DNA from: Undaria pinnatifida
Taxonomy: Eukaryota; Sar; Phaeophyceae; Laminariales; Alariaceae
Reading direction: 5' to 3'
Assembly (NCBI GenBank): GCA_012845835.1
Contig: JABAKD010000027.1
Span: 14,850,573-14,914,572 of the forward strand
Length of the DNA stretch: 64,000 nucleotides
The notes beneath the pieces are model-generated. The model did not search any database. It saw only the letters and a list, made by a program, of their open reading frames with translations, and was not told the DNA's origin. Below are positions 4,143 to 43,963 of this stretch, piece after piece (the first letter of the stretch is position 1; each line of letters starts with the position of its first letter). The translations under genes and the position numbers were made by a program.

Positions 4143-7100
4143 CTAACGCTCCCGGTGTTCGTCGTCTGCGGCTGCTTCCTCAAGTCCCCAATCTCGAATC
4201 TGTTTTTCTTCCCCCTGAAAATCGACGCCGAACGGTTTCAAGTCCGGGTTCGGCCGGTCCCCCCTTTCGAGCGCGGCAAGAGCCGCCTTGAACACGCGCA
4301 TCTCCTTGCTGAGGCGTGGGTGGGTGGGGGCAGCGCGGCAAAAAAAACACACAGGAAATTTCAGGTAGAGCGGTGGGATCAAGGCAAAAAGCAGAGAGCT
4401 GAAAAGTAGGCCTTGAATACGCGCATCTCCTTGTTGAGGGGTGGGTGGGGCGGGTGGGTGGGGACAGCGCGGCAAAAAAGAAACATACACGAAAATTCAG
4501 GGAGAGCGGTGGAATGAAGGCGAAAAGCAAGAGCTGAGAAGTAACCGGCGCGGGACTCAGCGAGTACGATACTGTCGTAGACTTGACCAATTGTAGCATT
4601 CTATGGTTGATAGGAGCGGACGCGTGCTACGATACGGGTGGCAAACTTCAATCTGAAAACGATTTTCTGAAAGGCTAGGATTATTGAAACAAAAAAAACA
4701 TCGAAAATGTCATTTTTTTTTTGTTTGCAATTATGTTTCTCTTTTCGGTAGCTAAGGCCATGGGACTACTGGTTCATCCGGATACAATTTAACTTTCTAC
4801 AAAAACGTTTTTTTTTCGGTGTGAGGTATGAAGATTTTTTCCAGGCGCGAGTAGTGAGACGTATGTACCAGTATGGACCTGGCACATCGTAAGCTTACTC
4901 CCGATTTCACCATCATATGTTTCTGGTGGAGGCATGAATTGCGTCAGCTGTGATATATGTGTGTACCACCTTTGGTTTGTTTGTGTTTTTCTCTGGGGTA
5001 TTCTTCAGCGCCAGAGTGACTGGGGCCTGTCCTGTTACCACGGACTTGATTATGCGAGTTAATGTGAAAACAACAACATAGAGCTCCTACCGTGAGGAAC
5101 TTCAGAAACAAACTGGTCCACCTCTCTAACGTAGCATGTAAATGAAGAAGAGAAAAAAAAACTTCAAAATTTCTGCAAATCTTCGGGTTTTGGCAAAAGT
5201 TTTGCAAATGACAGCTGATGAAGCGAGTTATTACTTTCTGACGGCGCCAAAACAATCATTTCTCATCTCCAGCCTCGCGTCCCAGTTTTTCCAAGTCTCG
5301 AGTGCGACCCGACGACCGGATCAATAAAAAATAAAACAACACGACAACACTATTTTGGCATGAAAACAAAGCAAAATCGATACAACCATTTTGGGATGCA
5401 CATGCACCACCGCCCACCTTGACAGCAGGGTGTGAGCGAACTATCAACTTTGGTTGCGTAAAGAGTTGGGCAGGGTATACAAATATACTATTAATAGTAT
5501 CGAAACCGGCGGGTGTAACAATCCAAGGCCAACCGAACCCAACCCACGAAAAACTAGCGGGAAAAAAAATGTCAAGAAATACGTTTTTCTTACCATTAGT
5601 GTTTTTTTTTCTAAACTATTTTTTTCATGGGTTGCTGTTGGCCTTGGATTGTGACATTTGACGGTTTTAACACAATCTTTACACTGTTTGCAACCCAACA
5701 GGATTTGGAAATCGCAAGCACGCTAGCAAACCAGCTATGTTAGATTGGGTTGGGTTGGGTTGGGTTGGGTTGGGTTGGGTTGGGTTGGGTTGGGTTGGGT
5801 TGGGTTGGGTTGGGTTGGGTTGGGTTGGGTTGGGTTGGGTTGGGTTGGATTGAGTTGGGTTGCGTTGGATAGGGTCTGGTCGGGTTGGGATTTTCCTATT
5901 TGCCACCAACGCACGCCATTGACGACAGTTACAACTGTCCACCGATCCAAGCTCCTAGCGAGAGCTACAGCATCTTAATAAAACATAACAGTACTCGGAG
6001 TAGCAGTAAAGAATTGTCCGTGAGAAAAACTGCTATTCTTACTTGTAGTACTATGTGGTTGTACAAACAGTAGCTGGCCGCCACATCCAAGGAAGGGCCG
6101 TAAAAAACGCCACTTTCCGTGAAAACTGTCACTAACCTCTTGCGCCCGTAGACGTCCCCTATTTGCTCGCGGCAACACGCCGAGCAAAAATCATCCATGT
6201 CCTCAGGTTCCACCCCGTACATATCCCCGAACGTCTCCGTCTCCACTCGGCAGAAGCGTGGTCGGTCCTCGTAGATCGTGCACGCCCTTTCCTCCTTATC
6301 GAAGTGCTGACACCAGCCATCGTCGGCGGACATGGACATATACAGCTCTAGTTCCTTCGGATCCGGAAGGTACTCTGAAAAAAAAAAATTACGTCGGGTG
6401 ATGGAAGGCAGCTTTTTAGGGCTGAGCGTTAGCTGACGATAGTTTATTTTACTGATTACTTTTTCCTGAGGTATTATTCTTCCATTTCAGTCCATTTCAG
6501 AGTGACTGCCGCCAGTTCTGTGACCACGGGGTCTCGATTGTGACCATGAGTGAATGTGATAAAATAAAAGCAACATGAGAAAACAGCAGCAGCAACAACA
6601 GCAGCAACAACAACAGCAACAACAGCAACAACAGCAACAACAACAACAACAACAACAACAACAACAACAACAACAACAACAACAACAACAACAACAACAA
6701 CAACAACAACAACAACAACAACAACAACAACAACAACAACAACAACAACAACAACAACAACAACAACAACAACAACAGCAACAACAACAACAACAACAAC
6801 AACAACAACAACAACAACAACAACAACAACAACAACAACAACAACAACAACAACAACAATAACAACAACAACAGCAACAACAACAACAACAACAACAACA
6901 ACAACAACAACAACAACAACAACAACAACAACAACAACAACAACAACAACAACAACAACAACAACAACAACAACAACAACAACAACAACAACAACAACAA
7001 CAACAACAACAACAACAACAACAACAACAACAACAACCACAACAACACCACCAACAACAACAACAGCTAGACAGGTACAGTTAGTTCCTTCCGGTAACTT

Positions 7101-43963: not shown

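Follow-up and report, generated by a model that had tools for sequence, protein, structure and literature searches.

Gene structures and duplicated exon borders

The window analysed here, a stretch of 64,000 nucleotides from Undaria pinnatifida (contig JABAKD010000027.1, positions 14,850,573 to 14,914,572), is firmly predicted from its sequence to carry two genes: the minus strand encodes a CxxCxxCC zinc/iron-chelating protein, and the plus strand a Wntless-like membrane protein. Translations of entire frames, with X in place of stops, gave no match above the cut-off and missed even the PF03692 match; exons were therefore located by hand from shorter stretches, and profile matches were obtained on the joined exons. 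Exons 3 and 4 of the minus-strand gene, when joined, matched PF03692 with an E-value of 4.6e-9, which fell to 1.9e-12 when part of exon 2 was added (48.1 bits, against a curated cut-off of 23), and five joined exons of the plus-strand gene matched PF06664 with 100.2 bits (cut-off 28.3; E-value of 1.6e-28). A preliminary description of this DNA had proposed that tandem copies of exon borders lie beside the real borders in both genes and in two further exon candidates. Alignment recovered such copies at the exon-4 start, at exon 3 (two copies), at the donor of exon e and at the last exon of the plus-strand gene, with a weaker case at the donor after 37,613. The features of the minus-strand gene, in window coordinates, are:

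4143 to 4308, minus strand: exon 4 (last), supported by a phase and a protein sequence that continue from exon 3 and by PF03692 on the joined exons
4410 to 4543, minus strand: tandem spare of the region around the exon-4 acceptor, 82% identical to 4285-4408, with AG changed to AA
6137 to 6374, minus strand: exon 3, PF03692 E-value of 3e-8, junctions modelled
7101 to 7258, minus strand: first spare of the region around the exon-3 acceptor, 71% identical to 6286-6436, with AG changed to AC
7349 to 7463, minus strand: second spare, a copy of the start of exon 3, 75% identical over 95 bases to 6287-6381, with AG intact
14317 to 14400, minus strand: exon 2 (part), with a CGACC motif, a donor GT at 14316-14315 and a phase that fits exon 3

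The exon-4 acceptor reads cctCAG/caagg (the slash marks the junction), and the real copy spanning it (4285-4408) comprises 100 intronic and 24 exonic bases, separated by a single base from the spare at 4410-4543. Unlike this near-adjacent pair, the exon-3 spares are separated from the real exon by 664 and 970 bases, and the second of them also aligns to the first. An AAC microsatellite of 484 bp (window 6582-7065) separates the real exon 3 from the nearest spare. A search of solved structures with the exon-3 frame returned no match. No duplication crosses the exon-2 donor; a direct pair with 73% identity (14130-14230 and 14612-14708) lies on both sides of exon 2.

The features of the plus-strand gene, with each exon listed here supported by PF06664, are:

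37530 to 37613, plus strand: exon a
38335 to 38456, plus strand: exon b, no duplicated borders
38966 to 39049, plus strand: exon c, no duplicated borders
41940 to 42161, plus strand: exon e, donor duplicated, acceptor single
42268 to 42378, plus strand: spare copy of the exon-e donor, 71% identical to 42156-42260, with GT intact
43328 to 43516, plus strand: spare copy of the last-exon acceptor region, 73% identical to 43520-43699, with CAG changed to CGG
43686 to 43963, plus strand: exon f (last), PF06664 on the joined exons

At the exon-e donor the two copies are separated by 7 bases, the real one (42156-42260) comprising 6 exonic and 99 intronic bases, and the pair at the start of the last exon (43328-43516 and 43520-43699) is separated by 3 bases. 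The pair at the donor after 37,613 (37603-37644 and 37694-37734) extends over 42 bases with 32.8 bits and was detected at the lowest threshold only. A tentative exon was also considered at about 41,168-41,214; its phases fit, yet it found no protein support and was dropped. The loss of AG from three spare acceptors, those of exon 4 (AA), exon 3 (AC) and the last exon (CGG), had been reported in the preliminary description and was confirmed.

The two remaining candidates, at 31 and 58 kb, proved to be genuine local duplications. They had been listed as exon candidates; Pfam searches with the five open frames tried at the two sites gave no support for an exon, the matches being absent or far under the cut-off. 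Their positions are:

30959 to 31323, plus strand: local duplication at the "31-kb exon", aligned pair 30959-31055 and 31239-31323
58268 to 58720, plus strand: local duplication at the "58-kb exon", aligned pair 58268-58383 and 58606-58720

Other elements were seen in the window. Remains of a copia-type retrotransposon occupy 49306-53966 on the minus strand, with an RVT_2 match at 53637-53966 and a piece at 49306-49662 that we take to be RNase H-like. An open frame at 22607-23338 carries a CCHC zinc-knuckle-like motif and is perhaps a retroelement gag, its profile match lying under the cut-off. Short dispersed repeats at 2416-2497 and 3996-4079 resemble each other, the latter standing just past the stop codon of the CxxCxxCC gene.

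Background of short local duplications

Local duplications were counted with simple repeats masked, at 40 bits or more and at offsets up to 1500 bases. The window contains 32 (0.50 per kb), as compared with 103 (0.52 per kb) in 20 evenly spaced 10-kb stretches, 200 kb in total, of the contig that contains it (C34). Together these make 135 events in 264 kb; three shuffles contained none. Nine masked dinucleotide shuffles contained no match of 32 bits or more (top score 31.0 bits), and 50 kb of E. coli DNA gave a single match, of 36.5 bits. When the unmasked window was shuffled 20 times, 177 matches of at least 30 bits were obtained, of which 166 reached at least 32.8 bits; these are tentatively attributed to simple repeats, a caveat shared by the unmasked border counts given below.

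Tandem duplication predicts an excess of direct over inverted pairs at short distance, and this was observed, with 136 direct and 17 inverted pairs at offsets below 500 bp in 356 kb. At distances beyond 2.5 kb, direct pairs numbered 0-2 per 500-bp bin in all three sets, the stretches being mostly 10 kb or shorter. Units of the adjacent events (n = 20) measured 59-250 bp, with a median of 111.5. In the window, the exon-4, exon-e donor and last-exon cases each consist of two adjacent copies in the same orientation. This contig and the sampled genes share a background of local tandem duplication that is not peculiar to the window. The suggestion that a local or genome-wide process is at work was therefore upheld as regards genome-wide short tandem duplication; its other part, a preference for borders, is treated in the following section.

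The copies might instead be dispersed repeats that were inserted side by side by chance. One such repeat, at about 58394-58467, does lie between the two 58-kb copies and has relatives in seven other loci compared; read by eye, it forms one family with the repeats at 2416-2497 and 3996-4079. The border-crossing copies, however, include the gene's own exon sequence, and the five firm units were unmatched in the other loci compared, which represent less than 0.1% of the genome, bar two weak partial matches (42.8 and 41.0 bits) that both concern one intronic stretch of the exon-3 query. We give this explanation next to no credence.

Frequency of duplications at splice borders

The frequency with which duplications cross splice junctions was determined for 13 firm window borders, a set that includes the exon-2 donor and excludes the tentative 41,168-41,214 exon, and for the 74 borders that bound 37 introns modelled, from Pfam exon matches, in genes of the same genome for chaperonins and kinesins. 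For the chaperonins, 45 of 64 Pfam matches were entered and 42 were usable; for the kinesins, 22 of 131 matches were used. Of the intron models, 27 for chaperonins and 16 for kinesins, six were discarded: three chaperonin models with scores below 0, a fourth with weak sites and a score of 3.0, and two kinesin models at or below the cut-off of 3.5. Eight further chaperonin inter-exon gaps had no model, so that their borders are absent from the sample. One locus, L026, yielded no usable intron, and another, L002, belongs to two sets, the evenly spaced stretches and the chaperonin loci. The most generous setting was unmasked, at 32 bits and with offsets up to 1500 bases, and 3366 intronic points lying at least 60 bases from a border served as control.

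At that setting, 5 of the 74 sampled borders were crossed by a duplication, as compared with 13.6% of the intronic points. The corresponding values were 4/74 against 12.4% at 40 bits and 3/74 against 10.4% with masking, and the border rate of the sample remained below the intronic rate at every threshold and gap setting tried. In the window alone the rate was higher: 5 of 13 borders were crossed (four strong cases and one weak), as compared with a rate of 15.5% for points across the window (P = 0.059 by circular shift and 0.039 by the binomial), these cases having been picked by an earlier reader after inspection of the sequence. At 40 bits the count was 4/13 (circular-shift P = 0.11, binomial P = 0.098); with simple repeats masked it was 4/13 (P = 0.078), and 3/13 at 40 bits (P = 0.17). 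With masking the exon-4 case is lost, its alignment being cut in two by a C-rich stretch. Under other thresholds and gap limits, with the tentative exon included, P against the window's own rate ranged from 0.05 to 0.26. When window and sample were pooled, 10 of 87 borders were crossed (8/87 at 40 bits) and the probability of 10 or more was 0.76, in a set that is biased to conserved genes and whose splice sites are modelled.

These counts bear on the possibility that a process specific to splice borders, acting for example on splice-site sequence or on structures of the nascent transcript, copies exon ends. Such a process should raise the junction rate above the intronic rate, and in both the sampled genes and the pooled set no such rise was found; in addition, most of the 32 masked window duplications of at least 40 bits sit away from firm borders. 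The difference between window and sampled genes (Fisher P = 0.006 unmasked and 0.009 masked, at 32 bits) and a ladder of exon ends in one chaperonin gene, described below, speak for border specificity, which we nevertheless consider very unlikely. The excess of the window over the sample may reflect something local, or stronger selection on the highly conserved sampled genes. Selective removal of border-crossing duplications could likewise mask a mutational preference when the observed rate is at or below the intronic one. The simplest reading is that duplications land regardless of borders and that certain genes collect several. The expectation that junction-spanning duplications would prove commoner than random short tandem duplications was thus contradicted in the sampled genes and in the pooled set.

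Fate of the spare copies

In all 10 cases of a crossed border, it is the intron that contains the spare copy. Considering sample and window together, 12 of 18 spare splice sites retain AG or GT. At the acceptor at 3440 of the kinesin locus L029, a 56-base spare with 96% identity lies 136 bp upstream, and this degree of identity suggests that such events are also recent. In the chaperonin (TCP-1 family) gene of locus L022, the exon end together with its donor at 5744 recurs seven times in the intron, where L022:5669-6444 forms a minisatellite with a spacing of about 83 bp; four of the seven spares retain GT.

The L022 array starts at an AAG/GT junction and is built of repeated exon sequence, as would be anticipated if an intron were born through tandem duplication of an AGGT-containing exon segment (the Rogers/Hellsten model). 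For the window this origin appears highly improbable: the modelled introns reach past the duplicated units and end at outside sites, and at none of the five crossed window borders is the modelled intron bounded by the two copies.

A different question is whether the spares are alternative exons or splice sites maintained by selection. One exon-3 spare acceptor and both window spare donors retain their AG or GT, and, over about 93 bases, the sole indel among the exon-3 copies is one 3-base insertion in the nearer spare. Differences among these copies are concentrated at third codon positions, amounting at positions 1, 2 and 3 to 7, 5 and 16 between the real exon and the far spare, to 9, 5 and 13 between the real exon and the near spare, and to 8, 6 and 15 between the two spares. 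The bias between the two spares is not predicted by fully neutral decay; shared constrained ancestry could account for it, and 29 differences are few. Against maintenance by selection, three spare acceptors are dead, and the exon-3 spares cease to match before the remainder of the zinc/iron-chelating domain; presumably, as judged by eye, they also alter residues conserved in the CxxCxxCC family. Use of the spare donors of exons a and e, which are offset by 91 and 112 bases, would cause a frameshift, and the open frame of exon e stops at 42217, short of its spare donor. Taken together, selected spares seem very unlikely.

The preliminary description had also held that the process builds long introns and spare splice sites. 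Some length is indeed added, since 12.3% of the total sequence in the 37 introns sampled lies inside some copy and 7.5% inside second copies. Eighteen of these introns contain a duplication, with a median length of 1078 bp against 683 bp for those without, a difference that is no proof of cause, as longer introns give duplications more room. The spare splice sites exist as sequence, and they might be used in splicing.

A model for border-crossing duplications

We favour, with a probability of roughly 80%, the reading that tandem duplications of about 60-250 bp arise genome-wide, are tolerated where the spare falls in an intron, and then decay. In this mechanism the genome acquires short head-to-tail duplications, typically of 60-250 bp, as the counts above show, presumably through replication slippage, template switching or microhomology-mediated repair. 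Splice junctions would be struck no more often than other intron DNA, in agreement with the sampled genes. Where an acceptor is crossed, the downstream copy, still joined to the remaining exon, would keep the function; where a donor is crossed, the upstream copy would do so. The geometry implies that, with the spare on the intron side, such an event can be nearly neutral. The spare would then drift, presumably neutrally, with some copies losing AG or GT as observed, and the intron would be left one unit longer.

Intron gain from short internal tandem duplications was reportedly described by Hellsten in 2011 and by Gao and Lynch in 2009. An excerpt of a review describes how introns can be gained through tandem genomic duplication (PMC3443670). 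As far as the excerpted sources describe them, those systems resemble the kelp cases in that short internal tandem duplications copy splice signals, but differ in that exonic segments turn into introns, whereas in the kelp existing introns lengthen. A closer parallel is the potato RdRp gene (PGSC0003DMG402000361), for which the excerpt of the report describes a segment that spans an intron-exon boundary and was duplicated in tandem, an anatomy shared by the kelp acceptor cases (PMC4974935); according to that excerpt, the duplication in potato made a new spliced intron, whereas no new intron is shown in the kelp, where the spare lies inside an old one. For Ectocarpus, an excerpt of PMC12477816 reports long introns together with tandem repeats that are spread fairly evenly; no count of junction-spanning duplications was found in that excerpt, and the main text uses the term "tandem duplication" 0 times. 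A keyword search of the open-access literature likewise found, among the matches listed, no kelp paper that counts junction-spanning duplications.

Under the favoured reading of genome-wide duplication and decay, a striking cluster of duplicated splice junctions can come from a genome-wide background of short tandem duplications. The same reading provides a simple scheme, open to counting, for the possible lengthening of kelp introns and for the origin of spare splice sites. A broader proposition, which we advance as speculative and doubtful, is that kelps have an unusually high rate of tandem duplication, in units of 60-250 bp, by which exon ends are copied into introns again and again, such that between 1/15 and 1/9 of splice junctions have a spare, whether decayed or intact. 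If it were true, kelp genomes would hold a large standing stock of cryptic splice sites, which could feed alternative splicing and intron growth.
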